Assembly: GCA_031265445.1 (NCBI GenBank)
Contig: JAISCQ010000282.1
Location: 1-38,913, forward strand
DNA length: 38,913 nucleotides
Direction of reading: 5' to 3'
Source: Bacteroidales bacterium
GTDB lineage: Bacteria; Bacteroidota; Bacteroidia; Bacteroidales; UBA4181
Shown here piece after piece: positions 2,515-35,576 of this stretch. Each line of letters starts with the position of its first letter. Position 1 is the first letter of the stretch. Made by a program: the position numbers and the translations under genes. Below the pieces are notes generated by a model. It searched no databases and was not told the DNA's origin. It saw only the letters and a program-made list of their open reading frames with translations.

Positions 2515-2549
2515 AGTTAAAGGTCAGTTATCAATAATAACAAAAGCAA

Positions 2550-4397: not shown

Positions 4398-4426
4398 TTT
4401 TGAATTGAAAATTGAAAGTGTCGAAT

Positions 4427-7273
4427 ATGAAAATTATAAATAGAACAACAGGGATCATTACGGTTTGCGGTCTGCTGTTATGTATGTCGGGCAGAGCGCA
4501 GGATATATCGTTGTCGGCAGACAGTTGTGGAAAAATCAGTACGGGCTTTAACAGTTTTCCGAAAATGGCAATTACCGGTTCAGTAGCTACCGTAGAAGGG
4601 CAAGCGATGATGACGCCGGTATCAAATTTATCTTTCTCCTTAATGGGTAAGTTGCCGGGATTGAATACACTTGAAGAAAGTTCCGAACTTACCCGTGCTG
4701 GGGTCTTCATAGGTATCCGTGGCTATTCGACGAACATCCACACTACGCCGATTGTAATTGTGGATGGGATCATCACTGAGCTTTCCACTATTGATTTTAT
4801 GAACATCAATGAAATAGAAAACATTTCCATAGTGAAAGACGGCTCATCCCTTGCTATTTACGGAATACAGAGCGCCAATGGCGCTATTGTGATCACTACC
4901 AAAAGGGGTACTACAGGACCGCTGAAAGTGAATGCATGGTATCATTATTCGCTGCAGCAGATGACCAAACAACCGCCGTTTGTCAGTTCTGCTGAATACG
5001 CACGGTTGCGGAATGAAGCAGGCGTAAACAGTGGATTGAGCGCTTACTCGCAGTTTACGCAAGATCAGATCGACCGGTTTGCATCGGGAAACAGTCTGTC
5101 GTATCCCAATAACAACTGGTACGACATGTTTGTACGCAAGGTAAGTTCCATGCATCAGGCTGGATTTTCCGTGCAGGGTGGAAATGACAGGATCAAACAC
5201 TTTTCTACCATCAATTATTACCACCAGTCGTCGCCGTTTAATATCGCCGATGAGCCGGAACGAAATTATACACCCACTATAGCTGTTGATCAAGCAAGCA
5301 TCCGTTCCAATGTTGATGTGAAATTCAACAATTATCTAAGTGCGTTCATGCTGATGAATGGTACAATACGTGTAGACAATGGCGTTCCAAGCGGGAATTC
5401 CTCTATTTACAGCCAAATACTCCAAACCCCTTCCCTGATGTACGGCCCCCTGACACCGATAGAAATGGTTTCGTCCAGCGGAGAGACAAGCCTGCAAAGC
5501 AAGCAGGTAACCACTTACGAAGGCGGCGATTCTCCTCCGTATGGACTTCTGAACCGTTCCGGATACAACAGGGTTTTGAACTCCTGGATTTATACGCAGG
5601 CAGGCGTGACGCTTGATTTGGGATTCCTCACCGACGGTCTTTCACTGACCGGCTTGATGGCATACCAGATGTATGGTCGCAACACTACTCTTACATCCCA
5701 AACTTATGAACGGTATATCCGCAGTAACAGTTATTCGGAGTTTGAGTTTACCAAATACGGGAATATTGATAATAGCCCTTTATCTTATAGCAAATCTCAC
5801 GTATTCAGGTATAATTTGAGTTTGTCTGCACGAGCTGATTATGCAAAAATGTTCGGCACACACGCCGTACAGGCTTCTGCCTTCTATTATTACTCCAAAC
5901 AGGAAAAAGAAGACATGAGCGGTCTGGGCATATTGCCTTACCTGAACGAAATGATGGGTGTAACGGCTTTATACGGCTATCGCGACAAATATTTTTTGAA
6001 GGCGGATATCGGTTATTCCGGATCGGAACAGTTTCATCCCGACTACCGCTACACTGCCACGCCTGCCATTTCTGCCGCCTGGGTCGTTTCGGGTGAAGAT
6101 TTCATGGCTGGCTTAGACTGGCTGTCATTGTTGAAACTGAGGGTTTCGTATGGCGCCAATGCCAACGATCAATTGGGTGGAGAACGTTACCTGTATGCCG
6201 ATTACATTAATGTTTGGGGTACGGAGGGTATGCGTGGCAATCCCCGGCTGAGCGCCGAAAAAATCTGGAAACAGGACTTTGGTATTGACCTGGGGCTGTT
6301 GAGTTCCGTTTCCCTGTCGGTAGACTGGTTCTATCACAAATGCGACAATATGCTGGTGAACAACGGTTTGATACCCGAACTCCAAACCATTCCATTATAT
6401 TATTATCCGAAGCTGAACACCGGGAAAATGGAAAATCGTGGCATCGAAATTGAAATGGGCTATAACGACCGTTTGTCGCAGGATTTGTCGGTATTCGCCG
6501 GCGCCGGTTTCAGCTTTTCTCGGAATAAAGTGGTCACGATCAACGAACTGGCATATACAGACCGTTTTTATCCATATCGGTCAGAGGGCTACAGAAGGGG
6601 CCAACCATGGGGTTACCTGATAGACTATAGCAATGGCAATGGCATATTCAATTCGCAGCAGGAAATAGATGCAAGCGGATTGACTTATTCAGCCATGGTG
6701 GCGCCACGGGTCGGCGATTTTATTTACCGCGACCTGAACAAAGACGGAGTAATTGACATAGGAGACGCCGCGCCCATCGGTAATCCAAGGCTTCCGGAAA
6801 TTTTTTACAGTTTCAACGCTGGAGCGCAGTGGGAAAATTTCGATTTCAGTTTCCTCTTACAGGGCGCAGCAAACACTTCTGTTGCCATTAACGGACTGGG
6901 AGTTTATGAATATTCCGCCAGGGGCGTCTTCAGCGATCTGCATCAGAATGCATGGACCGCTGAGCGTTATGCTGCAGGCGAAAAAATAGACTATCCCGCC
7001 CTTTCGCTAACGGAATCGGCAAACCATGTCGCCAACAGTTTCTTTATCATGAATGCATCCTATTTGAAAATGAGAAATATGGAGATCGGTTATTCCCTGC
7101 CCGCGTCATTAGCAAAAAAAATGAAGTCTGAAAACATCAGAATTTCCCTGTCGGGGCAAAATCTTTTTACCATTGACCGGATGAAGACTAAATATATTGA
7201 TCCCGAAACCGCCTCAATGGGCGCTTTCCAACCTTACAGAGTGTATAGTGCAGGTGTCAGATGTACATTTTAA
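4427..7273 (+). CDS. SusC-like TonB-dependent receptor lacking the N-terminal carboxypeptidase-like domain
   Basis: A 948-residue outer-membrane receptor. I chose the ATG at 4427 over the in-frame TTG at 4412 because it gives a normal Sec signal peptide (MKIINRTTG, then a hydrophobic run ending GRAQ). Most SusC proteins carry a beta-sandwich carboxypeptidase-regulatory-like domain of about 80 residues next. Here only about 30 residues precede the plug, which has MGKLPGL, IRGYSTN, IVIVDGI and the SIVKDGSSLAIYG...SANGAIVITT hallmark. The barrel follows, ending VRCTF. There is no secretin-like STN domain, so no sign of anti-sigma signalling. The gene begins 29 bases after the first SusD, and its stop at 7273 falls just ahead of the second SusD, indicating one operon. 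Similarity to the first SusC suggests duplication with loss of the N-terminal domain. Confidence 0.93.
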   Translation: MKIINRTTGIITVCGLLLCMSGRAQDISLSADSCGKISTGFNSFPKMAITGSVATVEGQAMMTPVSNLSFSLMGKLPGLNTLEESSELTRAGVFIGIRGYSTNIHTTPIVIVDGIITELSTIDFMNINEIENISIVKDGSSLAIYGIQSANGAIVITTKRGTTGPLKVNAWYHYSLQQMTKQPPFVSSAEYARLRNEAGVNSGLSAYSQFTQDQIDRFASGNSLSYPNNNWYDMFVRKVSSMHQAGFSVQGGNDRIKHFSTINYYHQSSPFNIADEPERNYTPTIAVDQASIRSNVDVKFNNYLSAFMLMNGTIRVDNGVPSGNSSIYSQILQTPSLMYGPLTPIEMVSSSGETSLQSKQVTTYEGGDSPPYGLLNRSGYNRVLNSWIYTQAGVTLDLGFLTDGLSLTGLMAYQMYGRNTTLTSQTYERYIRSNSYSEFEFTKYGNIDNSPLSYSKSHVFRYNLSLSARADYAKMFGTHAVQASAFYYYSKQEKEDMSGLGILPYLNEMMGVTALYGYRDKYFLKADIGYSGSEQFHPDYRYTATPAISAAWVVSGEDFMAGLDWLSLLKLRVSYGANANDQLGGERYLYADYINVWGTEGMRGNPRLSAEKIWKQDFGIDLGLLSSVSLSVDWFYHKCDNMLVNNGLIPELQTIPLYYYPKLNTGKMENRGIEIEMGYNDRLSQDLSVFAGAGFSFSRNKVVTINELAYTDRFYPYRSEGYRRGQPWGYLIDYSNGNGIFNSQQEIDASGLTYSAMVAPRVGDFIYRDLNKDGVIDIGDAAPIGNPRLPEIFYSFNAGAQWENFDFSFLLQGAANTSVAINGLGVYEYSARGVFSDLHQNAWTAERYAAGEKIDYPALSLTESANHVANSFFIMNASYLKMRNMEIGYSLPASLAKKMKSENIRISLSGQNLFTIDRMKTKYIDPETASMGAFQPYRVYSAGVRCTF

Positions 7274-7290
7274 CAAACATTAGTCATATC

Positions 7291-9090
7291 ATGAGCAAGA
7301 TGAAAAAAATGAATATTTTATCCAAAACAATTGTGATGGCGCTGTGCATGTTCGCTTGTGCCGATCTGGATTTACCCAACGATGGACGCATCAGTTATCA
7401 GGAATTGTTCAGCACCTATAATCGAATCAAAAGTTACTATAATCAATGTGTCGCTATTCAGGGTATAGGATTTAACTACGCGAACACTCCGCTGGCTTCG
7501 TTTTGCGACGAGGCTCACGATGCAAGCGACATGACGGCAGGCAGTGTGTTTAACTGGTATAATGACCGTACGTCGCCTACGAGCGACCCCTTAGGAGGTT
7601 ACTGGGGGGGAGGGTATACAGTGATCGGCAAGTGTAATACATTTCTCAAATACATGACTGATCCCGAGCTACCCTACCAGTTTAAGAATCCGGATGAAAA
7701 AGACGGGCTTATTGCGCAGGTTAGGGTTGCCAGGGCATATTATTACCTGCAGTTGATCAAACGGTATGGAGGCTGCGCCATCGTTGACGTCCCTTATGAA
7801 GTAGATCACGATTTCTCGAAAGTGGAACGCGCTACTTTTGAAGAAGTTGCCGACTTTATCATCGCTGAGTGTGACATAGCATTAGCCGCTAAAGAAACCG
7901 AAGGCATGCCTTTCGGGCTACGCTGGGCAATTTCGGATACGGAGCGCGGTCAAATTACCCGCGCATTTGCTTATGCCGTAAAATCGCAGACTGCCCTTTA
8001 CGCCGCCTCTCCGTTATGGTATACGCCGGGAAGCAAATACACCTGGGAAAAGGCAACTGCCATTACCAAGGAAGCGTTGGATCAATGCCTGACACATGGC
8101 TTCCAACTTCATAACAGGACGGTGGCTTCTACCGTTGCACAAAATCCTTATGCCCATTATTTCATGACCCGTTCGGACGCAAGCCGTTCGTGGGATAGAG
8201 AAACCATTTTTGAATCGGATATTCAATTATCGGTATGGTCGTTGGCGGGCTTGCCTGTCACTACGGGTATGACGAAAGCAGGCCCCGGACCTTCGCAGGA
8301 ATTAGTGGACAGTTACGAGATGCAAACAAGCGGTGAACCGCCTATTCTGGGATATTCGGATGCCGATCATTTAGAAGTGATCCCAAATCTTACATCAGGA
8401 TATGATCCCAATAATCCTTACGTTGGACGCGACCCCCGTTTCTATGCTTCCATCTACTACAACGGGGCGATACAAAACCTGGCGAACCAAACGCCAATTG
8501 TAGAAACATATGTGGGCGGCAATTGCGGTATTTCCGATCAGGTGACCGATATCCGTTTTACCCGCACAGGTTACTACATGCGTAAATTCAATAATTACAG
8601 GTCGGACAATTTGTTAAATTCCGATGGTTACATGCGGATTTTCCGACTTGGGGAACTTTACCTGAATTTTGCCGAAGCGGCATATCAATCGGTAGGACCC
8701 GATGTGCCTGTGGTTTCTACGAGCGGGATCATACTGTCGGCCCGCGACGCTGTAAACGCAGTCAGAAGGCGGGCAGAAATGCCTAACTTTCCTGCCGGCA
8801 TGACCAAGGAGAATTTCGAAAAGAAATACCGCAACGAACGTCGTGTGGAACTTGCCTTTGAGGAACACCGTTTCTACGATGTGCGCCGATGGAAAATACT
8901 TCACCAGACCGACGGATTTGTTACCGGAATGAGAATTATCCCGGAAGGAGGGAATTTAACTTATAACCGTATCAAATTAGCCGATCGCGGAACCAACGCC
9001 GATAAATATCTGATACTTCCGTTAGATGCCGCCGAAGCGCAGAAAATGGAAACATTGACAGGTGAAGAATGGCAAAATCCCGGATGGTAA
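7291..9090 (+). CDS. SusD/RagB-family outer-membrane lipoprotein (second pair)
   Basis: About 599 residues. In-frame ATGs lie at 7261 (inside the SusC gene), 7291 and 7300; 7291 or 7300 gives a compact basic-hydrophobic signal ending CMFAC, with the Cys as probable lipidation site, so the 7261 start is unlikely. SusD features are clear: ARAYYYLQLIKRYGG in the TPR region, the block YRNERRVELAFEEHRFYDVRRWK, and the terminal EEWQNPGW nearly identical to the first SusD (VKWQNPGW). It pairs with the SusC ending 17 bases upstream. The lipobox (Phe at -2) is atypical, which is common in Bacteroidota. Substrate unknown, but the duplicated SusC/D pairs may take different parts of the same glycan. Confidence 0.94.
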   Translation: MSKMKKMNILSKTIVMALCMFACADLDLPNDGRISYQELFSTYNRIKSYYNQCVAIQGIGFNYANTPLASFCDEAHDASDMTAGSVFNWYNDRTSPTSDPLGGYWGGGYTVIGKCNTFLKYMTDPELPYQFKNPDEKDGLIAQVRVARAYYYLQLIKRYGGCAIVDVPYEVDHDFSKVERATFEEVADFIIAECDIALAAKETEGMPFGLRWAISDTERGQITRAFAYAVKSQTALYAASPLWYTPGSKYTWEKATAITKEALDQCLTHGFQLHNRTVASTVAQNPYAHYFMTRSDASRSWDRETIFESDIQLSVWSLAGLPVTTGMTKAGPGPSQELVDSYEMQTSGEPPILGYSDADHLEVIPNLTSGYDPNNPYVGRDPRFYASIYYNGAIQNLANQTPIVETYVGGNCGISDQVTDIRFTRTGYYMRKFNNYRSDNLLNSDGYMRIFRLGELYLNFAEAAYQSVGPDVPVVSTSGIILSARDAVNAVRRRAEMPNFPAGMTKENFEKKYRNERRVELAFEEHRFYDVRRWKILHQTDGFVTGMRIIPEGGNLTYNRIKLADRGTNADKYLILPLDAAEAQKMETLTGEEWQNPGW

Positions 9091-10201: not shown

Positions 10202-13200
10202 ATGATGCACTTAAAACAATCCGTCAAGTTATTTCTGATTATTTTTTTCGTAGTAATTTGTTTTAGATTCCATGTGGTTGCATCTGTGCAGTATGAAACA
10301 GATCATTTTCGCTTAACCATTCTGACTAGCGGACAGGTAGAAAGTTTTGTTGATTTACGCAACGGCGCTAATTATGCCGATGCCAAAGATACGCGCTTTT
10401 GTGTGCTTAGGCTTCAAAAGAGTACTGCAGGCGTGGCAGCCGACCAAATGGTGCAAAATGGCGACATATTGACCTTTTCATTTCCCGGAACGGCTGTTGC
10501 GGTGAAATTACAGGTGACAGTCCATGAATCGCACCTGATTTTTGATGTGGTGGAAATAACCGGTGGCGATTTTTATGATCTTCAGTTTGCGCGCGTTGCG
10601 CTAATCATTGACTATCAAAAGGACGACTTTGCAGCCAGCGCCATGAGCCGGAAGCTGCATACCTCAACACTTGAGTTTCCGGGAAAGTCCAATCTGATTG
10701 GCGGTCAGTGCTATAAGGCGCACGGATGGGAAGGCGCCGGCGTATTTCTGCTGGGTATGCCCGAAGTGCATTTGCGCGAAACCATGCAACAGGTAGTAGC
10801 ATCCTATCCACCGGGCGAAATGCCGGTAAACCTTGCGGGAGGTCCTTTTGCAATGGATCATCCGAAAAATTACGGTTCGTACGTGATTGTATCCGAAGCA
10901 ATCACCGAGCAGCAGGTAGATGAATGGGTGGCGCATCTTTCCCGCTTTGGCGTTACACAGGTTGATTTCCACCAGGGAACGCCTTTCCGACAAGGCGATT
11001 TTCATTTCAACGAAAAAGCCTATCCGAACGGTGTTGCCGATTTCCGGAAAATGAGCGAGGCGTTTCGCAAGCATGGATTCATCACCGGCTTACACACCTA
11101 TGCCCAATACATAGATGTGAACTCGCAGTTTGTAACCCCTGTCCCCAGCAAAGATTTAGACGCAATGGGTACTTATGCGCTGACGGACGACTTGGATACC
11201 GACGAAACAACTGTCAGGGTGGATATATCAACTGCGGATATATCGGAAACAGTAGGATGGAGTATTCGCAACAGCAAAGTCATTCGTATAGATGATGAAT
11301 TGATGATTTTTGACAAGCCATCGCGAACGGCGCCCTACGGTTTTACATCCTGTCAGCGGGGCGCATACGGGACAAAGGTATCGGCGCACAGTAAAGGCGC
11401 TCGTGTGGAACATATAGTGCAGTTGTTCGATATGTTCATACCCAAAGATGGCAGCGAACTGTTTCTTGAGGTAGCCCGCGAAACAGCCCGCGCCTATAAT
11501 GAAGGAGGGTTTGGTATGATCTATCTCGACGCTTTGTGGTCGCCACGTACTGACGATTACGATCTTGGGCGGTATTACGAAACGCTTTTCGTGAACGAAC
11601 TGCTGAAACATGTAGAAACGCCGCCTTTATTGGAATATGGCAGTTTTTTTGCTACCAACCTTTGGTACGGACGTTCGCGCATGGGAGCATGGGATACCGG
11701 ACACCGAGGATACAGACAGTTTTTCGACAAACACATAGAGGCGAATCATACCACAGCCGACCCATTCTACCTGCCCGGGCACATGGGATGGATGGCACTT
11801 TGTCCATCGAACGGCGACAATGCAGATAATTTCCAGTATCATATTATGTTTCAGGAAGATGTTGAGTATTTAGGCGCCAAAATTCTGGCATATAATTATA
11901 GCCTTTCGTACAATGACATCCATAAAAATATTGCACAGCCATTCGCTTATCGAAACGGAAATATCTTGAAAAACTACGATTCTCTCCGTCGCGTCGGTTA
12001 TTTTCCTCCCGAAACGCTGGAACGTCTTCGTGATCCCAATGCAGATTTCCTGCTTCAACATTCCGGTGATGACTGGCGCCTGACGGAAGCGAACTATGAG
12101 CGTACCTTGTTGCGCCCCGACGTTCGTGAGTTTTCGTACAGCAATCCCTACCCCGAACAAACGCCCATGATACGCATCGAACACCGTCATCAGCCGGTGG
12201 CATACACATCGTCCGAAGGCATCGACTTAATAGCGTTTAACGAAACGCTACCGGTATCGTCAACAACTACCCGCAACTTTTCACCGCCCATCAATCTTTC
12301 AAATCATTTGGGGATGGGATTTTGGATATTTGGCGACGGGGGAAACCAACGCATCAATATCCAGGTGGAAGCGCCGTCAAATCTGATGTCCGGATATACC
12401 GACCATACAGTGACGGTTGATTTCGAGGGATGGCGTTATTTCGCGCTGGCGGAAGCCGACAACGGTATGATCAACAAAGCATATCCTTGCCCCATGCACG
12501 AACAGTGTGGAGATATTTATAAAGATTTGCGGCAAACTGTTTACTATAACAGCATCTCAAGAGTCCAAATGCAAATAGAAGGAGAAACAAAAAATCTGCG
12601 TTTTCGTACGGTTCGCGCGTTACCGCTACAGCATACCAACCTTGTCAACCCTACGCTCGAAATGGACGGAAAGAGTATCACTTTCCAGGGAAATATCAGA
12701 ACCGGGCAATATATGGAATATACGCCCGGCGGTCACGCGGTAGTGTATAACGCAGTGGGCAGAGAGGTCAGTGAAATGCAGCAGAATACGCCAGTGTTCA
12801 AACTCCCCACAGGCGATGCCACGATCAAATTTTCCGCTACTGATCCGTCCGGGAATAATCCTGTACGTATTACGTTGCGTACCGATGAAAATCCTCCGCC
12901 AGAAAAAGACAACCCGCCTATACCAACGGACTTGTCTGCAACATACGGGCAAATCCTGTCGGATGTAGCATTACCTGCGGGATGGTCGTGGGTGGACGAA
13001 ACAAAATCGGTTGGAAATGTGGGCGTTCAAACGCACGAAGCAAATTATACTCCGGATGACCCTAAAAAGTATTATGCGATGACCAATGTAGGTTTAAAAG
13101 TAACCGTAAAAGATGGCGGAGATCCGGAAATCACAAGCAGCGAAGAAATCCTGGCATATCCGCTTCGCGCATGGATACACAACAGATTGCTGCATGTGAC

Positions 13201-13360
13201 CGGATTAACTCCCGGAGAAACGTTGAGCGTATATACCGCTACCGGCGCACTGGAATATCATAGCATCGCCATATCAAACGAAGCGGATATAAAATTGAAG
13301 GTAATGGGAGTGTATATTGTGCAATCGGGTGGCAAATCAATAAAAGTAGTGTTTCATTAA
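10202..13360 (+). CDS. Putative secreted glycoside hydrolase of unassigned family, with C-terminal sorting domain
   Basis: About 1052 residues from the ATG at 10202, chosen because it yields a clean signal peptide (MMHLKQSVKLFLIIFFVVI...VVAS). Order seen: beta-rich N-domain (~30-210); TIM-barrel-like region (~225-600) with DFHQGTPF, GLHTYAQYID and GFGMIYLDALW, where Asp443 is a plausible catalytic residue; an inserted small beta domain (~315-405, IRIDDELMIF...QRGAYGT) inside the barrel; a jelly-roll-like carbohydrate-binding domain (~690-800); an MBG-like module (ATYGQILSDVALPAGWSW, ~915-970); and a final ~65 residues (LSVYTATGALEYHS...GVYIVQSGG) resembling a type IX secretion sorting domain. 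It is a paralog of the protein at 14846-17773. The YLDA strand-end Asp recalls alpha-galactosidase-type barrels, but I cannot name a CAZy family; hydrolase activity is inference. Confidence 0.7.
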   Translation: MMHLKQSVKLFLIIFFVVICFRFHVVASVQYETDHFRLTILTSGQVESFVDLRNGANYADAKDTRFCVLRLQKSTAGVAADQMVQNGDILTFSFPGTAVAVKLQVTVHESHLIFDVVEITGGDFYDLQFARVALIIDYQKDDFAASAMSRKLHTSTLEFPGKSNLIGGQCYKAHGWEGAGVFLLGMPEVHLRETMQQVVASYPPGEMPVNLAGGPFAMDHPKNYGSYVIVSEAITEQQVDEWVAHLSRFGVTQVDFHQGTPFRQGDFHFNEKAYPNGVADFRKMSEAFRKHGFITGLHTYAQYIDVNSQFVTPVPSKDLDAMGTYALTDDLDTDETTVRVDISTADISETVGWSIRNSKVIRIDDELMIFDKPSRTAPYGFTSCQRGAYGTKVSAHSKGARVEHIVQLFDMFIPKDGSELFLEVARETARAYNEGGFGMIYLDALWSPRTDDYDLGRYYETLFVNELLKHVETPPLLEYGSFFATNLWYGRSRMGAWDTGHRGYRQFFDKHIEANHTTADPFYLPGHMGWMALCPSNGDNADNFQYHIMFQEDVEYLGAKILAYNYSLSYNDIHKNIAQPFAYRNGNILKNYDSLRRVGYFPPETLERLRDPNADFLLQHSGDDWRLTEANYERTLLRPDVREFSYSNPYPEQTPMIRIEHRHQPVAYTSSEGIDLIAFNETLPVSSTTTRNFSPPINLSNHLGMGFWIFGDGGNQRINIQVEAPSNLMSGYTDHTVTVDFEGWRYFALAEADNGMINKAYPCPMHEQCGDIYKDLRQTVYYNSISRVQMQIEGETKNLRFRTVRALPLQHTNLVNPTLEMDGKSITFQGNIRTGQYMEYTPGGHAVVYNAVGREVSEMQQNTPVFKLPTGDATIKFSATDPSGNNPVRITLRTDENPPPEKDNPPIPTDLSATYGQILSDVALPAGWSWVDETKSVGNVGVQTHEANYTPDDPKKYYAMTNVGLKVTVKDGGDPEITSSEEILAYPLRAWIHNRLLHVTGLTPGETLSVYTATGALEYHSIAISNEADIKLKVMGVYIVQSGGKSIKVVFH

Positions 13361-13454
13361 TCATTTTTTACAAGAAGGGTGTGACATCCGATCAACATGA
13401 ATGATAAAATTAAAATCAAGTTATATAAAATAAATAAATTTAAATCGTAATCCA

Positions 13455-14720
13455 ATGAAAAAGCAATTCATTAAATTTTCAGCCGCTACGCTCATGGCAG
13501 CAGTAATGGCATTAGTGGTGTCCTGTAAGGACGATGACGATCCTGCATTATCCGTAACGCCTTCGGCAACGGCTATTGTATTTGCGGCGGATGGCGCCAG
13601 CGCCACATCGGCGGGCGCGGCAATTACCCCAACCTTCACGGTTGAAACCAACCAGGGCTTGTGGGATGTAACCTCAAACCAAACATGGGTAAAGGTGAAC
13701 AAGTCGGGTAAGACTTTTACTTTGAGCGCCGGTTCGGCTGGAACCACAGCGCCCGATCCCGCCACGGTAACCGTTACGGCTGGCGGGGCGAAACCCGTTA
13801 CCATCACCGTAACGCAGTTGGTTTCTGCGTCAATTCCGGTGTCGAGTATTTCCGTATCCCCGGCGTCTTTAAAATTATCTGAGGGAGATAGCGAGTTCCT
13901 GTTGGCAACCCTTTTGCCGGAAAACCATACAGATCAGGAGGCAAATAACACCCTTGTCTGGGAATCGTCCGACGAAAACGTGGTAACCGTAACGGGTGGC
14001 ATTGTAAATGTCGAGGGCGCGGGTAACGCCGTCATTACAGTCAGTTTGCAGCGCGACCCATCCATCAAAACGGAGGTTCCTGTTGTCGTTGGAACCGGCG
14101 TGTATCTTTCGCAATTTACTACAGTATCGATTGGTAACGAGGATTATCTCAAAGGCGAAATCTCCTTTACCAAAGACGCTTTAGTATTTATCAATGGAAT
14201 CGACGAATCAAAGATACCCAATGCGTACAATCGCGATTTCTTCACCTACGACCCGGAAACAGGCGATCTTACATTCATCGGAGAAACCGGTACATGGGAA
14301 GTGTGGTATATGCAAAGACTCAATTATTTTTATATTTTGAGAATGGCGGATGAAGTCCCTGTCGCCTGGTGGTTTGCCGGTCAAGGGTTTTGCGCTGCTA
14401 TAGAATGGGACTTTACCGGAAGTGGATGGGAAGATAACCATCCCAGAGATTTAGGATATATGAGGCCAATAGGTGATGGGAAATACCAAGTAAGCGGTTG
14501 GTTAAGAGCGGGATTTAGCTTGGCACTGCGATTAGGTGCTGCCGTTTATCCATTGAATCCTATCAGTGATATAACAGGAGATATTGAAGGAATGAATCTT
14601 TATCAGGATTTGCCTGCTACCAATACCCATTTTCAAGGAATGGGAGAAGGATTTATACAAGGTTATTATCTCATCACTTATGATTCGGATACTATGACAT
14701 TGAATTTTGAAAGGTTATAA
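13455..14720 (+). CDS. BACON/Ig-like lipoprotein, probable surface glycan-binding protein (SusE/F-like C-terminus)
   Basis: The 421-residue product has a lipoprotein signal ending VVSC followed by an Asp-rich stretch (KDDDDP), typical of surface-exported lipoproteins in this phylum. Residues ~28-125 form a BACON-type module (WDVTSNQTWVKV...TVTQLV). Residues ~130-213 form a bacterial Ig-like (Big_2) domain (VSSISVSPASLKLSEGDS, LVWESSDENVVTV). Residues ~215-421 hold aromatic-rich segments (KGEISFTKDALVFINGI, FFTYDPETGDLTFIGETGTWEVWY) resembling the SusE/SusF starch-binding repeats and DUF5125-like modules. It is placed between two putative hydrolases, so it likely holds the glycan near them. 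An AT-rich 94-base gap precedes it, and a strong inverted repeat follows 21 bases after the stop. Confidence 0.8.
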   Translation: MKKQFIKFSAATLMAAVMALVVSCKDDDDPALSVTPSATAIVFAADGASATSAGAAITPTFTVETNQGLWDVTSNQTWVKVNKSGKTFTLSAGSAGTTAPDPATVTVTAGGAKPVTITVTQLVSASIPVSSISVSPASLKLSEGDSEFLLATLLPENHTDQEANNTLVWESSDENVVTVTGGIVNVEGAGNAVITVSLQRDPSIKTEVPVVVGTGVYLSQFTTVSIGNEDYLKGEISFTKDALVFINGIDESKIPNAYNRDFFTYDPETGDLTFIGETGTWEVWYMQRLNYFYILRMADEVPVAWWFAGQGFCAAIEWDFTGSGWEDNHPRDLGYMRPIGDGKYQVSGWLRAGFSLALRLGAAVYPLNPISDITGDIEGMNLYQDLPATNTHFQGMGEGFIQGYYLITYDSDTMTLNFERL

Positions 14721-14741
14721 TCATTGTAAAAAAACATCCGC

Positions 14742-14770
14742 TTTGGGACGAGGTAAACCCTCGTCCCAAA
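14742..14770. repeat. Perfect 12-bp inverted repeat with 5-base loop (stem-loop)
   Basis: TTTGGGACGAGG (14742-14753) is followed by TAAAC and its exact reverse complement (14759-14770). It begins 21 bases after the BACON/Ig-like lipoprotein gene and ends 75 bases before the next gene. On the plus strand no T-run follows, so it is not a textbook intrinsic terminator in the direction of transcription; on the minus strand a run of seven T follows about 8 bases after the stem. It could be a processing or mRNA-stabilising hairpin that sets unequal expression of the flanking genes, or a dispersed repeat. Confidence 0.75.
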
Positions 14771-14845
14771 TGAGGGAACGAAGTACACGGTGCAAATTTG
14801 ATAAATTATTGTTTCCATTTTTATAAATTAAAAATAATAAAAATA

Positions 14846-17773
14846 ATGTTAGACACGATAAAATATTTGATGCTTATAGTATCCTGTGTCTTTTTTGCCA
14901 ATTGCAACAGCAATGATATCGTACTTGAAAACGACTATTTCAGGTATGTAATATCAAGCAACGGAACAAATCTTAAATTTGCAGACAAAGCAAGCGGCAA
15001 AAACCATCTTGATACGAATGTAAGTACAAAATGCGCCTCTATTTCAGTTGATGGAACAGAATACCAAGTGTCTGCCATATCATTTGAAGACCATCAATTG
15101 AGTATGGAATTTGGAAAGACCGGAGTAAAAATCAAACTCGATGTGAATCATTCGGGAGACAGAATCGCTTTAAAAGTAGCATCAGTTACCGGAAAAATCG
15201 AGTCCCTGACTTTTCTGAATGTTCCGTTAAAGCTGGAAGGTCAACCTTACGAACCTTTTGCAGCATGCGTGCTTTCGATGAATCTCTTTACTCATGTCAG
15301 GCAGTTACCTCCATTGCAAACCAGATTATGGGCAAAGTGTTATGAACGATTTGGCCTTGAAGGGGCTAAAATAACTTTGCTTGGCCTTCCTCACGAAAAA
15401 ATTCTGCCTGTGATTCGTGATGTAATGTCAAATGCCAAAGATATTCCTTTTTCCGACCAGGGAGGAGCATGGGCCTTGATGAGAGATGAAGGGTATGGCT
15501 CTTACCTGATGAACTTTGGAACCCTGACCGGGGAAACAGTCGATGACTGGATTGAAACGTGCCGCAGCCTGGGATTCAATCAGATAGACAGTCACGGTGG
15601 AGGCAGTTTTTTTGAATTTGGCACTTTTGATCTCAATAAGGAAAAATGGCCGGATGGATGGGATTCGTTTAAGCGAATTAATGCACGGTTGCATGAAGCC
15701 GGAATCTCTCATATTTTTCATACTTATGCCTTTTTTATAGATAAAACGTCGAGATATGTAACCCCTGTTCCCAGCAAAGATTTAGGATATGTTCGTACCT
15801 TTACCCTTGCTAAACCCCTGAGTGAAACTGCAGATGAAATCGTTGTGAAGGAATCCACCGCGAATATTTCCACCGCAACCGGATTCCATACGGAAAATAG
15901 TGTAACACTAAGAATTGAAGATGAATTTATAGAGTTCAGTAAAGTAGCTCAATCTCCTCCCTACAAATTTTCGGGATTAAAGCGGGGAGCCAATGGCACA
16001 AAACCATCGTCACATCATGTCAATGAAACTGCTTTTCATATGAGTGAAAGATTTGGAAGATTTGTTCCGGGGCCGGAAACCGGTCTTTTTGACGAAATGG
16101 CACAGAGACATGCGGAAATTGTAAATCATTGTGAATTTGACGGTATCTATTTGGATGCCATTGATGGAGCTGCCGTACTGGAAGGAGAAGAAAACTTTTG
16201 GTATTATGGAACGAAGTTTATTTTCGAAATTGCAAAACACTTAAAACATACGGTTGGAATGGAAATGAGTTCCATGTCACACCACTGGTGGCATTACCGG
16301 TCGCGCTGGCAAGCATGGGACAGGCCTGTCCGCGGATATAAAAGATTTATCGATATACATTTAGCCTCTATCAAAGCGTCTGCGCTTTTCCTGCCGGATG
16401 AAATCAGATCGAATGAATGGGAACATGGTCTATGGCCCGGTCATACGCCTCTGATAGATAAATACGCAGGTGTGGATAAGGGGCAAACAATGCTTCCGCT
16501 CCATTTAGGGTGGTGGGGACATCAGGCCTGGGATCCTCCTCAGACAGAACCGACTTTTTCTGACGACATAGAATACCTCGGCTGCAAAATGATAGCTAAT
16601 AATGCCGGCTTTTCACAGACAGGCGGAGTAGATAAAAATACTTTGGAAAAGATACCGATTTATAAACAAGCCGCAGAAATACTCAAACAATATGAAGAAT
16701 TGCGGCAGAAGAAATATTTTGGAGAAGACGTGAAAAAACTGTTGCGGCAACCCGGAAAAGAGTACACGCTGTTCCAAAACGAAAACGGAGATTGGAATTT
16801 TAAACCGGTTAGTTATCAAAAACATAAAATAGCCGGATTGGATCATCCTACGGCAAGATGGACTACAGAGAATCAATTTTATGACCAACCGATTCAATTA
16901 AGGATAGAATCATTGATGTCGGTAAAACCTTATGATGATCCATCCAATATTGTTTTAACCGATGGTTCTGACTTGACAGGTTTCAATATCAAATCAAATG
17001 CAACAGGAGTTTCGGGTCAGATAAAAGCGACAGAGGAAAAAACAGCAACCGGAGAGCAAAGTATTGCATATTTTTCAAAAAGCTCCGGAGAATCTCCCCA
17101 AGACGGTTCTTATATCAATATGGAAAAAAAATATGATCCATTGTTGGATTTAAGTAAAAATCAAGCGTTGGGCGTCTGGATAAAAGGAGATGGCAACGGG
17201 CAGATCCTGAATTTGAGTTTGAGGAGTCCTGACCATATCTCTTATGGTGCACATGGGGATCATTTTGTTAAAATTGATTTTACAGGCTGGAAATATTTTG
17301 AACTTGTTGAGATAGAATCTTCAAAAATCAGTGATTATATCTGGCCTGATGACTCTCATTTTTATGTTTACGACTCATACAGGCACACGATTCAATTCAG
17401 AAGTATTGAAAGCCTGCAATTTTGGTACAATCATCTGCCGAAGGGACGGGAAGTAAAGACAGTAATCGGGCCTGTTAAGGCAATACCAATGATAAGCGGA
17501 TATGTTGAAAATCCCTCTGTTACAATAGCTGGAAAAAAGATCGTTTTTCCGGTGAAAATGGAATCAGGAATGTATTTGGAATTTAGATCTTTAAGTGACT
17601 GTAAATTATGCGATTCCAAAGGAGAGCTTCTTGGAGAAGTAAAACCTCAAGGTACGGTTCCTGAACTGAAAAAAGGAAATAATGAAATCATTTTTTCAGG
17701 TGAAGGTTCCGAAAAATGTAATACACGATTACAGATAACTGTAATTAGTGAAGGTTCAATTGACATCAGATAA
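14846..17773 (+). CDS. Second putative glycoside hydrolase, paralog of the protein at 10202-13360
   Basis: About 975 residues from ATG 14846; the in-frame TTG at 14798 would put extra residues ahead of the export signal. The short signal ends at Cys14 (IVSC) or Cys20 (FANC), suggesting a lipoprotein. The domain plan copies its paralog: beta N-domain, barrel with QIDSHGGG, HIFHTYAFFID, VTPVPSKDL and FDGIYLDAIDG (Asp437), the same inserted beta domain (LRIEDEFIEF...KRGANGT), a SRWQAWDRPVRGYKRFID segment, LGWWGH, and DDIEYLGCKMIANNAGFS. A jelly-roll-like binding domain covers ~690-870. It lacks the MBG-like and sorting domains. The gene is visibly more AT-rich than its neighbours, hinting at separate origin. 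Family unassigned; enzymatic role inferred from the conserved acidic residues and the locus. Confidence 0.68.
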   Translation: MLDTIKYLMLIVSCVFFANCNSNDIVLENDYFRYVISSNGTNLKFADKASGKNHLDTNVSTKCASISVDGTEYQVSAISFEDHQLSMEFGKTGVKIKLDVNHSGDRIALKVASVTGKIESLTFLNVPLKLEGQPYEPFAACVLSMNLFTHVRQLPPLQTRLWAKCYERFGLEGAKITLLGLPHEKILPVIRDVMSNAKDIPFSDQGGAWALMRDEGYGSYLMNFGTLTGETVDDWIETCRSLGFNQIDSHGGGSFFEFGTFDLNKEKWPDGWDSFKRINARLHEAGISHIFHTYAFFIDKTSRYVTPVPSKDLGYVRTFTLAKPLSETADEIVVKESTANISTATGFHTENSVTLRIEDEFIEFSKVAQSPPYKFSGLKRGANGTKPSSHHVNETAFHMSERFGRFVPGPETGLFDEMAQRHAEIVNHCEFDGIYLDAIDGAAVLEGEENFWYYGTKFIFEIAKHLKHTVGMEMSSMSHHWWHYRSRWQAWDRPVRGYKRFIDIHLASIKASALFLPDEIRSNEWEHGLWPGHTPLIDKYAGVDKGQTMLPLHLGWWGHQAWDPPQTEPTFSDDIEYLGCKMIANNAGFSQTGGVDKNTLEKIPIYKQAAEILKQYEELRQKKYFGEDVKKLLRQPGKEYTLFQNENGDWNFKPVSYQKHKIAGLDHPTARWTTENQFYDQPIQLRIESLMSVKPYDDPSNIVLTDGSDLTGFNIKSNATGVSGQIKATEEKTATGEQSIAYFSKSSGESPQDGSYINMEKKYDPLLDLSKNQALGVWIKGDGNGQILNLSLRSPDHISYGAHGDHFVKIDFTGWKYFELVEIESSKISDYIWPDDSHFYVYDSYRHTIQFRSIESLQFWYNHLPKGREVKTVIGPVKAIPMISGYVENPSVTIAGKKIVFPVKMESGMYLEFRSLSDCKLCDSKGELLGEVKPQGTVPELKKGNNEIIFSGEGSEKCNTRLQITVISEGSIDIR

Positions 17774-17854: not shown

Positions 17855-19030
17855 ATGTATTATCATGCAAAAGAAAACGAAAGGCGTATTAAAAAGTTAC
17901 AAACGCTTTTGGAAGAGTATCATCTGGATTATGCTTTTGTGTATTACGATGAGCTGAATATAGCAAACGGGTGGTATTTAACCGGTTGGTGTCCGCAATT
18001 TGAAAGCGGAGCGGTTTTTGTGCCGCAGAAAGGCGAACCTTTGTTGCTTGGCGGACCCGAAAGCGAGCCTTTCGCGAAGCAATCGTCAGCGGTCAGGGAA
18101 ACGAGAAATTTTACCGCTTTTATGGTGCCCGACGAAGAATATCCCAATGCGATCATCAGCGGCTTTCCGGATTTGTTCAAAGAAATAAAGGATAAGTTGA
18201 TGAACGGGAAAATCGGAGTTGTCGGGTTGGATAAAATGCCGTATTATTTACATGAGCAGATTTCAAACGGATTCAAGGGCATTGAACTTGTTGATATTAC
18301 CGAAGAATATTTGAAATTCCGTCATTACAAATCGGATTGGGAAGTTGAGCAAATCAGCCAATCGTTCCGCATTTGCGATGATGCGTACAGAGCGATGACC
18401 GCAGCCGTCAGGCCCGGCGTTAAGGAAATCGAGGTTGCTGCCGAGGGAGAAGCAGTGTGCAGGAGAGCGGGCGCCAATGGTTTTGCCTATCAGACCATTG
18501 TGGGAAGCGGCGAAAGGTCAAACGCCGTAGTGCCGACGGCTACCAACAAAGTAATGGCTGACGGTGAAATGGTCATGCTGGGAATAGCGCCGCGTACTAA
18601 CGGATATGCGGGAACGTTCGGCCATACCGTGCCGGTGAACGGAACATATACGGATGAGCAGCGAAAATGTTTAAAAGATATGATCGAGGTTTTATTTGAT
18701 GTGAAAGCCGTATTAAAAATCGGAGCGGATGGAAAAACGATCGACGCGGCGGGCAGGAAACTGTATATCAAAGGCGGATACCTGAAATATATGGTATGTC
18801 CTTTCGCACATACGATAGGGCTGATGGAAGCCGAAGCGCCTTTTTTCGGACCTAACAGCACGGATGTTTTAAGTGAAAACATGACAGTTTGCGTGGACGT
18901 AAGTTTTTTCGGACATCCCCGGTTGAACGGGCTAAGAGTGGAAACGGGATATGTCATTACCAAAGACGGGGCGAAGTCGCTGTCGCCTTTTATGGAAAGT
19001 GAATTTCAAAAAATTTTAAAGGAGGAATAA
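17855..19030 (+). CDS. Creatinase/aminopeptidase P-fold (M24 family) protein missing canonical metal ligands
   Basis: The 391-residue protein has an N-terminal creatinase-like domain (~1-155) and a C-terminal pita-bread domain (~160-391), with no signal peptide, so it is cytoplasmic. Landmarks are recognisable: VRPGVKEIEVAAEGE, IVGSGERSN, GYAGTFGHTV, FAHTIGLMEAEAPFFGP, MTVCVDVSFF, RVETGYVIT. Active M24 peptidases bind two metals through Asp, Asp, His, Glu, Glu. Aligned by eye these positions are Gly243, Thr254, His319, Asp348 and Glu363, so both Asp are gone. The His of the usual PH motif is also absent (VVPTATN). Creatinase of this fold works without metal and cleaves a C-N bond, so a non-peptidase hydrolase or lyase is plausible; a ligand-binding role is also possible. 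It is followed by the ASRT-family gene after 3 bases. Confidence 0.88.
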   Translation: MYYHAKENERRIKKLQTLLEEYHLDYAFVYYDELNIANGWYLTGWCPQFESGAVFVPQKGEPLLLGGPESEPFAKQSSAVRETRNFTAFMVPDEEYPNAIISGFPDLFKEIKDKLMNGKIGVVGLDKMPYYLHEQISNGFKGIELVDITEEYLKFRHYKSDWEVEQISQSFRICDDAYRAMTAAVRPGVKEIEVAAEGEAVCRRAGANGFAYQTIVGSGERSNAVVPTATNKVMADGEMVMLGIAPRTNGYAGTFGHTVPVNGTYTDEQRKCLKDMIEVLFDVKAVLKIGADGKTIDAAGRKLYIKGGYLKYMVCPFAHTIGLMEAEAPFFGPNSTDVLSENMTVCVDVSFFGHPRLNGLRVETGYVITKDGAKSLSPFMESEFQKILKEE

Positions 19031-19413: not shown

Positions 19414-20808
19414 ATGAAAGTAATCGTTGCATCTTTTCAGTTTGAATCCTGTACTTTTTCGGAATTGTTGCCCGACATCAATGATTTTGAATATTTCGAG
19501 GGGCAGGATATTTTTAAAAAACTTGTCGTATATGAGCCGTTAAAATCCGCGGGGTTTGAGGTCATACCTTCGATTTATGCCAATGCGCTTCCCGGCGGAA
19601 TATTGCCGCTGGACCTATACAATGGTTTTAAGGAAAAAATATTGCGAACCGTGAAGGAAAATTCCGATGCGGAAGGAATATTTATTTACCTTCACGGGAG
19701 CATGGAAGTTGAAAAAATCGGAAGCGGCGAGCTTCAGTTATTGCGCGAATTGCGTGCAATAACGGGAAACCGTCCGCTTATCTCGCTGGTTTTGGATTTA
19801 CACGCCAACATTACCGGGGAACTTGTCGGTTACGCCGATATTATTTGCGGTTACAAAACCGCGCCGCATGTTGACCAGGCGGAAACGCAGTTAAGAGCGG
19901 TTCATTTATTAATCGACTGTCTCAAAAACAACATCCGTCCCGTATCAAAAATGACGGGAATACCGATGCTGCCTGTGGGAGACGCTATGCTGACTGCCGA
20001 AGAGCCACTCAAAACGCTGATACAAAAAACGTATGAGCTTGAAAAGTTGCCGGAAATTTTAAGCGTGAATTTATTTTTCGGACACATGTGGGTTGACGCG
20101 CCGAATACCCGTGCAAGCGTTGTGGTTACGGCGTCAAAAGCGGAACAGGCAGATGCTTTGGCAAAAGATACGGCAAAGATATTTTGGGAAACGCGCGGGA
20201 TGTACAGGCTGTCCGTTGAAAACGGCACAATAGGCGACTGTGTGGACAGCGCCTTGAAAACAGCCGCCCGAAGAGTTTTTATATCCGACAGCGGCGACAA
20301 TACTACTGCCGGCGCGGAGGGACGCAGCCTGATTGTCTTAAATGCTTTTGCAAGCCGCCTGCCTTTTCGGAAAAAAGTCTGTATAGCGGGAATAACCGAC
20401 GATGTATTGCTTGGCAAAGCAAAAGAGTTGAAAACATTTTCCTGTCATATAGGCGATCAAGAAATCATTTTTACCGTCAAAAACACAGGGAAAATTCTTG
20501 GCTGGGCGAAAGAAATGATAGGCGACTGTTTAACTGCGTCCTGTCAAAACATTGATGTGATATTCACACAAAAACGCAGCGCGTTTATCTCAAAGGAGAA
20601 TTTTGAAATGGCCGGCGTAAAGATGGAGGATTATGATATTATCGTGGTAAAATTGGGATACCTGTTCAGTGAATTGCAGCCGTTTTGCGATCAACATTAC
20701 TTTGCCTTGACGGACGGGAGCAGTTGCGTAGATATCAGGCGTTTTCACTATCAAAAACTGATACGTCCTCTGTATCCGCTGGATGAGAATATAAAAATAT
20801 TTCAATGA
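19414..20808 (+). CDS. M81/MlrC-type metallohydrolase
   Basis: The 464-residue cytoplasmic protein has the two-domain plan of the MlrC (microcystinase C) family. The N-domain (~1-300) carries LHGSM, then LDLHAN with Asp128 and His130, and TAPHVD with His152, matching the Asp-His...His zinc site known for MlrC. The C-domain holds SDSGDNTTAGAEG, the family's D-x-x-DN-glycine-rich motif, and ends after a YDIIVVKLGY strand typical of the family. MlrC cleaves peptide products of microcystin; most homologues have unknown substrates and many occur in sugar or amide catabolism clusters. All visible metal ligands are intact, so it should be active, unlike the M24-like neighbour. Its stop overlaps the start of the first transporter (ATGA), so they are translationally coupled. 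Confidence 0.87.
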   Translation: MKVIVASFQFESCTFSELLPDINDFEYFEGQDIFKKLVVYEPLKSAGFEVIPSIYANALPGGILPLDLYNGFKEKILRTVKENSDAEGIFIYLHGSMEVEKIGSGELQLLRELRAITGNRPLISLVLDLHANITGELVGYADIICGYKTAPHVDQAETQLRAVHLLIDCLKNNIRPVSKMTGIPMLPVGDAMLTAEEPLKTLIQKTYELEKLPEILSVNLFFGHMWVDAPNTRASVVVTASKAEQADALAKDTAKIFWETRGMYRLSVENGTIGDCVDSALKTAARRVFISDSGDNTTAGAEGRSLIVLNAFASRLPFRKKVCIAGITDDVLLGKAKELKTFSCHIGDQEIIFTVKNTGKILGWAKEMIGDCLTASCQNIDVIFTQKRSAFISKENFEMAGVKMEDYDIIVVKLGYLFSELQPFCDQHYFALTDGSSCVDIRRFHYQKLIRPLYPLDENIKIFQ

Positions 20809-22013
20809 AAAATCCGGCAAAAGGAAGTATGGCAGTTCCCCTGCTAATGGTGGGTTCGATGAATGCCGTTTATGGTTTTGCACTTGGAGTAAACGCCTTT
20901 TTTATCCCCTTTGTCAGGCAGGCATTCAATGTAACAACGGGCATGGCTTACATGATTATGGTAGCCACGTTTTCGGCCTATCTGGTATTTGGCGGATTTA
21001 CCGGTCCCATCCTGAAAAAGGCAGGATACAAGGGTGGAATGGTGATTGCTTTGATGCTGATGTCGGCTGGATTTCTGATGATTGTTCCATCGGCAAAAAC
21101 GGTCGGCTTTCCGTTGTTCCTGTCCGCGTTATTTGTCAACGGACTTGGACAGGCGCTACTTTCAGGCGCCTACAGCACGTATATTTCCATCATCGGCAAC
21201 CCCGACAGCGCCGCAGCCCGTATTTCCATCATGGGTATCTGCGCCAAGGTATTCTATGCCGTAGCGTCCTTCATCCTTGCATTTTTCATGGATCTTGCCG
21301 ATGTGAAAATTGACGACATCATTACTCCTTTTTACCTGATTGCAGGCATCACTTTTATCATGGGAATCGTGTATTATTATTCGCCGTTGCCCGAAGTAAA
21401 AGCAGCCGGTGGGGAATCCGGAAAAGCCGGCGAAGAAAATCAGTCCGCGTATGCAAGCTCCAAAACAGGTATTTGGCAATTTCCGCATTTACTGCTGGGT
21501 GTGCCGGCTATATTCTTTACCGTAGGGGTGGAATATCTGGCATTGGGAACGATGAATGATTATGCGCAGCATCTGGGACTTTCAAATCCACAGAATTATG
21601 TCTGGTTGGTATCATTTGCCATGATAGCGGGTTATATTGCGGGCGTACTGTTTATCCCGAAATATTTAAGTCAGGCCAACGCCCTGGTTGCCTCCACTGT
21701 TTTGGGTATGACGGTTACACTGCTCATACTGTTCATTCCGGCGGCGGCGTCCATTTGGCTGATACCTGTTCTGGGACTGGCAAACGCCCTTTTATGGCCT
21801 GCGGTTTGGCCCCTCGCCATTGCCGATTTGGGTAAATTTACCGAAACAGGAGCGTCTTTGCTGGTTACAGGTATCATCGGCGCCGGTATCGTATCGTTAA
21901 TGTTCGGATTTATGGCCGGAAAATACGGTTATCAGCCGGCATACATGGTCGCTTTTCCCGGATATCTTTTCATCTTTTATTTTGCATTATGGGGCAGTAA
22001 AATAAGAACATGA
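20805..22013 (+). CDS. MFS transporter, fucose:H+ symporter (FHS)-like
   Basis: A 402-residue inner-membrane protein with about twelve hydrophobic segments and a central hydrophilic loop near residues 195-220 (EVKAAGGESGKAGEENQS). The pattern NAVYGFALGVNAFFIPFVRQAF at the start of TM1, the FTGPILKKAGYKGG loop between TM2 and TM3, and the small-residue-rich later helices resemble fucose-permease-like sugar carriers common in Bacteroidota. It probably imports the mono- or disaccharide product, or exports an end product, of the pathway. It overlaps the M81 gene upstream and the second transporter downstream by 4 bases each. Specificity cannot be read from sequence. Confidence 0.85.
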   Translation: MKNPAKGSMAVPLLMVGSMNAVYGFALGVNAFFIPFVRQAFNVTTGMAYMIMVATFSAYLVFGGFTGPILKKAGYKGGMVIALMLMSAGFLMIVPSAKTVGFPLFLSALFVNGLGQALLSGAYSTYISIIGNPDSAAARISIMGICAKVFYAVASFILAFFMDLADVKIDDIITPFYLIAGITFIMGIVYYYSPLPEVKAAGGESGKAGEENQSAYASSKTGIWQFPHLLLGVPAIFFTVGVEYLALGTMNDYAQHLGLSNPQNYVWLVSFAMIAGYIAGVLFIPKYLSQANALVASTVLGMTVTLLILFIPAAASIWLIPVLGLANALLWPAVWPLAIADLGKFTETGASLLVTGIIGAGIVSLMFGFMAGKYGYQPAYMVAFPGYLFIFYFALWGSKIRT

Positions 22014-23245
22014 GAAATATCAAATTGATGGTATATCTCAACCTGATATTTTTTCAGGTAGGATTACTGGAATCAATGATGAGCGCCTTAATTCCCGAAA
22101 TGATACACAGTTTTCAGGTCGGTTACGGGTTAGCCTCGGTAATGCCGTTAGCCTATTATGCGGCAATTGCTCTGCTCTGTATTCCGGCAGGCATGATCGG
22201 GAGCAGGTATTCTTCCGTAAGGATGCTGTTCTTCGCTTTTATGCTTGCTTTAGCAGGCGTATTCATGTTTGTCGTATTTTTAAGCTATCAAGCGTCTGTC
22301 GCTTCATTGTTCCTGATGGGAAGCGCTGCCGCCGTCATGCAGGTTACCGCCATGCCGCTGGTGCGAAAAACGTGCGGCGCCGAAAACCTGTCATTCCATA
22401 CAACACTTAATCAGTTAATGTTTGGTTTGGGCGCTTTTTTAAGCCCGTTCATTTATTCACGGCTAACGTCCGGCATGCTCAGCGGGGAACGCTTCTTTCC
22501 CGTCAATCTTCTTCGGCATGTCGTACCCGGGGGGTTTGAATGGACATCTGCGTACTGGCTTTTTGTCCCGTCGATAATCTCACTGATGGTGGCGGCGGTA
22601 TTGGTGCGATTTCCGGAACATGCGAAAGACAGATCATCTGCTCAAACCGGAAAAAACGGAACCAGGGAGTTGTTCCGGAACAGATATGTCATTTTCTTTT
22701 TTGTATCGATGGCGGCTTATGCAAGCTGCGAACAGGGAATTGCCGCATGGATGTCCGAATATTTTCAGGATGTTCATGGCCTCGACCCGTTGACGGAAGG
22801 CGCCTCCAGATTGTCATTATACTGGCTGTTGCTTACTGTTGGCTGTTTGGGAGGAATGTTACTGCTCAAATTCTTTGAAAGCAGGAAAGTTCTTGCCGTT
22901 TCGACCGTATGCGCTATCGCAAGCCTGCTGTTTGCATTGCATGGCGGAACTCATGTTTCCGGAATCGCTTTTCCGCTGGTTGCGGTATTCGAATCGGTGA
23001 TGTGGCCTGTTATCATGTCATTGGCGCTAAATTCGGTAAGCAGACACCATGAGGTTCTTTCCGGCTTCATGTTTACGGCGTTCATTGGCGGCGCTCTGGG
23101 ACCCGTGATTATCGGAAGTATGGGCGACAGGCTGGGTTTGGGAATATCTTTGCATTATCTCTTTTTGCCGTTATCGGTCGTTTTAAGTGTCGCATTTCTG
23201 GCTAAGCCGTTAGTGAATAACAAACGCATAACCATTAAGAATTAA
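22010..23245 (+). CDS. Second MFS transporter, FHS-like
   Basis: A 411-residue inner-membrane protein with about twelve predicted membrane segments. Features include IPAGMIGSRYSSVRML between TM2 and TM3, LNQLMFGLGAFLSPFIYS (the asparagine-containing helix seen in sugar MFS carriers), a central loop with KDRSSAQTGKNG, and a late FMFTAFIGGALGPVIIGSMGDRLG segment. It starts inside the stop of the first transporter (ATGA) and is the last gene of the plus-strand block. The two carriers are similar in plan but clearly divergent, so a heteromeric or import/export division of labour is possible. The next gene is convergent, 17 bases away, with no obvious terminator hairpin between. Confidence 0.85.
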   Translation: MRNIKLMVYLNLIFFQVGLLESMMSALIPEMIHSFQVGYGLASVMPLAYYAAIALLCIPAGMIGSRYSSVRMLFFAFMLALAGVFMFVVFLSYQASVASLFLMGSAAAVMQVTAMPLVRKTCGAENLSFHTTLNQLMFGLGAFLSPFIYSRLTSGMLSGERFFPVNLLRHVVPGGFEWTSAYWLFVPSIISLMVAAVLVRFPEHAKDRSSAQTGKNGTRELFRNRYVIFFFVSMAAYASCEQGIAAWMSEYFQDVHGLDPLTEGASRLSLYWLLLTVGCLGGMLLLKFFESRKVLAVSTVCAIASLLFALHGGTHVSGIAFPLVAVFESVMWPVIMSLALNSVSRHHEVLSGFMFTAFIGGALGPVIIGSMGDRLGLGISLHYLFLPLSVVLSVAFLAKPLVNNKRITIKN

Positions 23246-35503: not shown

Positions 35504-35576
35504 TATGGTACATTTTTGATTTTGATTTTTGATGATTCCCGTATGATACATTTTTGTATTTCCGTTTAAATTAAAA

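Follow-up and report, generated by a model that had tools for sequence, protein, structure and literature searches.

What kind of enzyme, if any, is encoded by the two large genes that lie close together on the plus strand of contig JAISCQ010000282.1 from a Bacteroidales bacterium (assembly GCA_031265445.1)? A preliminary description, made from the letters of the window (the whole stretch of 38,913 nucleotides that was analysed), took their products, here proteins A and B, to be two paralogous barrel proteins with an inserted β domain and with no recognisable CAZy family. The answer developed below is that A and B are quite probably secreted or surface retaining α-glycosidases of an uncatalogued family within the α-galactosidase superfamily (clan GH-D-like), which would use as their catalytic pair Asp443 and Asp498 in A, and Asp437 and Asp492 in B. 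The features on which the argument draws are as follows.

1 to 9090, plus strand: two SusC/SusD-type outer-membrane uptake pairs upstream of A, the first SusC truncated by the contig start
9115 to 10191, plus strand: BACON and F5/8-type-C-like surface protein (Pfam)
10202 to 13360, plus strand: protein A, 1052 amino acids, alternative ATG at 10175; a signal-like helix at the N-terminus, then a β-sandwich, a (β/α)8-type barrel that holds the insert, β domains towards the C-terminus and a low-confidence last 150 residues
10880 to 11992, plus strand: predicted barrel of A including the insert, about residues 227 to 597, from AlphaFold secondary structure and the VIA match to GH36 over 29 to 618 of the model
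11156 to 11434, plus strand: β-rich insert of A, the RGA-x-GT module, about residues 319 to 411
11528 to 11530, plus strand: the IYLDA aspartate of A (Asp443), which closes β4 and is the probable nucleophile
11693 to 11695, plus strand: the AWD aspartate of A (Asp498), which follows β6 and is the probable acid/base
13455 to 14720, plus strand: BACON- and Big_2-type lipoprotein between A and B (Pfam)
14846 to 17773, plus strand: protein B, 975 amino acids, frame open from 14798; the N-terminus resembles that of a lipoprotein and is followed by a β-sandwich, a barrel that holds the insert and C-terminal β domains
15503 to 16708, plus strand: predicted barrel of B including the insert, about residues 220 to 621, from AlphaFold secondary structure and the VIA match to GH36 over 25 to 655 of the model
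15782 to 16060, plus strand: β-rich insert of B, about residues 313 to 405, similar to a phage/GTA tail module (phrog_1101, Rcc01698_C)
16154 to 16156, plus strand: the IYLDA aspartate of B (Asp437), which closes β4 and is the probable nucleophile
16319 to 16321, plus strand: the AWD aspartate of B (Asp492), which follows β6 and is the probable acid/base
17018 to 17356, plus strand: CBM11-like domain of B, in its C-terminal part (Pfam PF03425, E=8.2e-7)
17855 to 19030, plus strand: M24-fold protein (creatinase-like) without the two metal-ligand Asp, a conserved neighbour of B
19414 to 23245, plus strand: M81/MlrC-like protein and two MFS transporters, which extend the same-strand cluster

Both open reading frames are as previously described, and starts at 10202 and 14846 do put the IYLDA aspartate at residue 443 of A and 437 of B. 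The C-terminal end of A (residues ca 900 to 1052, positions 12900 to 13360) is an extension that is not found in relatives and has no Pfam match; it ends in GVYIVQSGGKSIKVVFH, which resembles a type IX secretion sorting tail. A second cluster opposes the first on the minus strand between 23263 and 38738, containing SusC/D genes at 33536 to 38738 together with DUF4959/DUF5000 and DUF4998 proteins, a purple acid phosphatase with a Por_Secre_tail, a weakly GH57-like protein, an epimerase and a CBM9 protein.

The fold of the two proteins is the natural starting point. Fold prediction and fold search, as proposed in the preliminary description, were run on each protein, and the AlphaFold models of both contain the barrel with an inserted β-rich stretch that had been described; a prediction lacking the barrel, named beforehand as an outcome that would refute the description, did not occur. 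The AlphaFold2 model of B, built from family alignments, has a pLDDT of 93.7 and a pTM of 0.91, and that of A has a pLDDT of 81.5 and a pTM of 0.79, with the last 150 residues being unreliable. When the model of B is compared with the PDB in Foldseek, GH101, GH36, GH129 and GH31 glycosidases rank first (E ~1e-9 to 1e-17). The best E-values are those of the GH101 endo-α-N-acetylgalactosaminidases and GH129, in which the barrel lies between β domains as it does in B, but these matches have low full-chain TM-scores and the two families give no Pfam match from A or B. In the VIA comparisons, the GH36 enzymes FpGalNase (a galactosaminidase, 8x1b; Z 21.1, rmsd 5.7, 454 aligned) and TmGalA (5m0x; Z 19.5, rmsd 5.8, 422 aligned) match B over the N-terminal sandwich and the barrel together (25 to 655 of the model), whereas GH13-type barrels, at Z 17-18, cover the barrel and little else. 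The separately folded A likewise finds 8x1b (Z 19.2, rmsd 5.6, 442 aligned), with Z values of ca 16.5 for GH36 α-galactosidases including TmGalA and of ca 15 for GH13 barrels. GH36 is thus the top structural match of both proteins, GH31 ranks after it among the best solved-structure matches, and the lead of GH36 over generic α-amylase-type barrels is a modest one of some 3-4 Z units. In other words, both predicted models have the GH36-type arrangement of an N-terminal β-sandwich, a (β/α)8 barrel and a C-terminal β domain, and in fold the two models belong with the α-galactosidase superfamily (GH36, GH31, GH101, GH129).

That A and B are homologous is evident from their alignment, which runs from end to end except for the last 150 residues of A, with 28% identity over 978 columns (BLASTP E=5e-109), far above chance. 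Relatives were sought with a query alignment of three sequences in GTDB genomes, one for each species; 139 were found and 79 loci retained, of which 27 are in Bacteroidota, 17 in Planctomycetota, 11 in Armatimonadota, six in Hydrogenedentota and five in Omnitrophota, with fewer in Verrucomicrobiota, Kiritimatiellota, Latescibacterota, Chloroflexota and Zixiibacteriota, making ten named phyla plus three unplaced records. Among 296 sampled Bacteroidota genomes the core family is rare, with full-length matches in two, the source genome counted; in nine further genomes of that sample the matches are shorter and weaker, and of the type seen with the sister family (see below). The motif order first noted in A and B (D-x-H-x-G, HTYA, VTPVPxxxL, RGA-x-GT, IYLDA, AWD, EYLG) is present and mostly kept across 73 aligned sequences from many phyla. 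Invariant in this alignment, in the numbering of B, are Asp437, Asp492, Glu360, Arg380, Thr385, Trp482, Trp491, His505, Gly555 and Trp556, with Asp248, His250, His292 and Glu473 being nearly so, the last kept in 72 of the 73.

Paralogy in the sense of homology therefore stands, but not in the sense of a recent tandem pair. In the tree, the only partner of A is a protein from a Tannerella MAG (L017), and the branch that the two form has a length of 3.4, whereas B lies inside a well-supported Bacteroidota clade, adjoining a protein of another Tannerella MAG (L088) with which it shares 86% identity. A recent tandem duplication is ruled out by these positions, and because of them the pair must be regarded as old: as far as the tree can tell, A and B are ancient paralogues. 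At the L017 locus the A-type gene is also followed, two genes further downstream, by a strongly diverged member of the wider family (13593-15860), after which comes a GHL6-type glycosidase.

The long branch of A and its sole close relative raises the possibility, a minority one but to be taken seriously, that B is the canonical hydrolase and A a paralogue that has diverged, become specialised or grown weak in catalysis, for instance a binding protein or an enzyme that acts on a different linkage. Commensurate with such divergence, A has lost the DG that follows IYLDA, has T in place of H479 and H in place of E568, both otherwise near-invariant, and has a low-confidence C-terminal stretch of 150 residues. 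On the other hand, A retains both candidate catalytic aspartates, the insert and the barrel, and its own model gives a GH36-like fold, all of which speaks against such a reading.

The insert, which lies between β3 and β4 of the barrel, had been thought probably to shape the active site since it is conserved. This argument is weakened by what the insert itself resembles. When searched alone against PHROG, the inserts of all 21 sampled members match phrog_1101, a tail protein (best E=1.4e-11; 2.1e-6 for that of B), and many of the 21 match further tail, tail-fibre and baseplate families, with shuffled inserts giving no PHROG match at all. In Pfam, 16 of the 21 match Rcc01698_C (PF23666, a gene-transfer-agent baseplate protein; best E=7e-5), although the insert of B, at 14.1 bits, misses the curated cut-off of 27 bits. 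The match between the insert and the tail module takes in the E...RG..GT....H stretch. The link to phages rests on profile matches, because tblastn of a single consensus-like insert sequence against phage genomes returned no match; the insert profile found only chance matches in the PDB, and Foldseek against viral models gave loose, partial matches, several of them to tail proteins and none spanning the enzyme.

As a result of this likeness to a tail-protein module, the conservation of the insert need not reflect the active site. It is somewhat unlikely, in our estimation, that the insert shapes the active site, with the invariant Glu360/366 and Arg380/386 (B/A) touching the substrate. Such a role would fit the position between β3 and β4 and the invariance of E360, R380 and T385 in 73 of 73 sequences, which extends to the sister family; set against it are the 21/21 and 16/21 matches to phrog_1101 and Rcc01698_C, the clean shuffled control and the presence of the module outside the setting of these enzymes. 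The best reading of the insert is that of a shared module, the conserved motif of which is probably structural. The module sits in tail proteins in the one case and, in A and B, inside the glycosidase-like barrel of cellular enzymes in the other. Several sites that bind oligosaccharides are described for the RcGTA tail, and the Rcc01698 'megatron' proteins account for three of these (PMC7296036); no statement of sugar binding by the C-terminal module of Rcc01698 in particular was found.

Family assignment by sequence is a harder matter than assignment by fold. In Pfam, A and B together yield a single match that passes the cut-off, the CBM11-like domain of B, NCBIfam offers nothing usable for A or B, and single-sequence phmmer finds no relative of either among PDB sequences at E<=1. 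At the same threshold the Melibiase model PF02065 (GH36) matches neither A, B nor seven relatives, despite recovering true GH36 proteins in the source genome, and the Pfam models for GH101, GH129 and GH31 match neither A nor B. The earlier judgement that no CAZy family is recognisable is accordingly upheld as far as Pfam, NCBIfam and PDB sequences go, and the family is, by these three measures, apparently uncatalogued within a known superfamily.

More sensitive comparisons do connect it to GH36. The family profile picks up FpGalNase by sequence alone (E=9e-4) over the stretch from strand 2 to strand 3, and hhalign to divergent GH36-type proteins of related genomes gives E=1.3e-5, improving to 2.3e-6 when the insert columns are removed. 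The insert-free alignment runs through strand 4, where FDGIYLDA is matched with GIDYYRQDF, the segment that holds the nucleophile in GH36-type proteins. With the standard GH36 alignment as partner, hhalign gives a weak match (E=0.012 with the insert, 0.009 without). FpGalNase (8x1b, 9ayu) and TmGalA share with A and B the N-terminal β-sandwich and (β/α)8 barrel, the Asp at the end of β4 and, with the family, the G-D-x-x-x-N-x-x-K-x-P-x-G motif after β2. They differ in that identity is only ca 10-12%, there is no Melibiase match, and A and B have longer C-terminal β domains and, inserted after β3 and before β4, an additional module of about 93 residues; moreover, K-x-D and DDGW are not kept as such, the GH36 members aligned having K-W-D where the A/B family has Y-L/F-D-A, so that K-x-D is absent. 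Pfam and NCBIfam can trail CAZy, and A and B might for that reason belong to a recently created numbered CAZy family that has neither a Pfam model nor a solved structure; this we hold to be unlikely, given a barrel that matches nothing in Pfam, NCBIfam or PDB sequences, and an open-licence literature in which no description of the A/B family, or of a new clan-D family of such a kind, was found.

Which residues would carry out catalysis in these apparently uncatalogued enzymes? The nucleophile of GH27 and GH31 enzymes is found at the end of strand 4 and their proton donor at the end of strand 6 (PMC1249566), and in FpGalNase D463 is essential (PMC11762096). Asp437/443 lies at the C-terminal end of β4 in the models, and Asp492/498 lies after β6. 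The suggestion that the IYLDA aspartate marks a site like that of retaining glycosidases has held up well: the residue is invariant in 73 of 73 sequences, ends β4 in the model and aligns with the GH36-type nucleophile segment, and on these grounds it is the probable nucleophile. The AWD segment had also been named as a motif, correctly, and its aspartate is likewise invariant (73/73), but its part as the probable second catalytic acid had been missed. The assignment of Asp492/498 as acid/base is probable too, if less secure than that of the nucleophile, as it draws on invariance and on the position after β6 in the model, the GH36 profile alignment being unreliable in the β6 half. That the acid/base of a retaining α-glycosidase is instead Glu473 of B (Glu478 of A) on β5, in the manner of GH13, with Asp492/498 only stabilising or binding substrate, is improbable: Glu473 is on β5 in the model and kept in 72/73, and GH13 barrels do reach Z 17-18 against B, but GH36 scores highest for both A and B with the N-terminal β-sandwich included, profile similarity also points to GH36, and it is Asp492 that is invariant and placed after β6.

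A sister family at six loci (L007, L008, L009, L011, L012, L013), with proteins of ca 740-830 amino acids, has the same domain order and the same insert (hhalign probability 100, E=5e-69), has no Pfam family either and finds only chance matches in the PDB. Since it has the insert too, the insert was probably present before the A/B family and the sister family split. In the sister group FDG replaces LDA, and segments of the NWGEPW or NVGGG type replace AWD, such that its acid/base may differ from the AWD aspartate.

The genes around B also recur. In several Bacteroidota relatives of B the genes encode, in this order, a regulator, SusC, SusD, the barrel protein, an M24-like protein, a NodB-type deacetylase, DUF6786 and a RhaT-like transporter, and parts of this order occur even in a Hydrogenedentota genome. 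Other loci of the family have GH36, GH20, GH35 or GH141-type genes or Gfo/Idh oxidoreductases nearby. The M24-like cluster (c4) is found at nine of the 79 relative loci (L017, L048, L049, L058, L060, L062, L088, L094, L095) and in the window; at the density of M24 genes in the source genome (4 per 4.6 Mb) about one such gene would be expected in the flanks, and a chance association is thereby ruled out. In the window protein (17855-19030) and in ten relatives in the cluster both Asp metal ligands are replaced, and because these are missing the M24-like neighbours look like metal-free creatinase and not like metallopeptidases. Beside the M24-like genes there recur NodB deacetylase, creatininase or MlrC-type genes, the creatininase being PF02633 in L017, with the same cluster in L058. 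No relevant paper was found on DUF6786, or on creatininase with SusC.

What the computations show is the homology, the predicted fold, the invariance of the two aspartates, the alignment of the β4 Asp with the nucleophile position of GH36-type proteins, the likeness of the insert to tail modules and the conserved operon of B. Catalysis, retention, α-stereochemistry, the identity of the acid/base and the substrate are inferred. As proposed, the (β/α)8 barrel would cleave an α-glycosidic bond by retaining double displacement, the residue that closes β4 (Asp437 in B, Asp443 in A) acting as nucleophile and the one after β6 (Asp492 or Asp498) as acid/base. The tail-related β-module between β3 and β4 would probably be a structural or glycan-contacting accessory domain, the C-terminal β domains (CBM11-like in B) may help to hold the substrate, and the products would enter through the adjoining SusC/SusD pairs. 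The substrate may, tentatively, be an α-linked galactose-type or amino-sugar glycoside, and from the creatinase/creatininase-like neighbours one might guess at one that bears nitrogen. By analogy with the deacetylase/galactosaminidase pair of Flavonifractor plautii, a two-step scheme can be drawn for the B operon, in which a family with a captured phage-tail-type glycan-contact module would work alongside a deacetylase or creatininase and a creatinase-like enzyme devoid of metal on an α-linked, nitrogen-bearing glycoside, the N-substituent being stripped before hydrolysis; this is a speculative scheme and a long shot.

The overall picture is that a testable fold, two catalytic aspartates and an origin for the insert are now proposed for a family found in ten phyla and represented by a model in neither Pfam nor NCBIfam, and for its sister family. 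The proposal indicates which residues might be mutated and which substrates might be screened. Beyond this, a glycosidase barrel split by a module otherwise known from phage/GTA tails counsels caution in equating the conservation of an insert with active-site constraint. What A and B would represent, then, is a useful new enzyme family, and not a new kind of biology.
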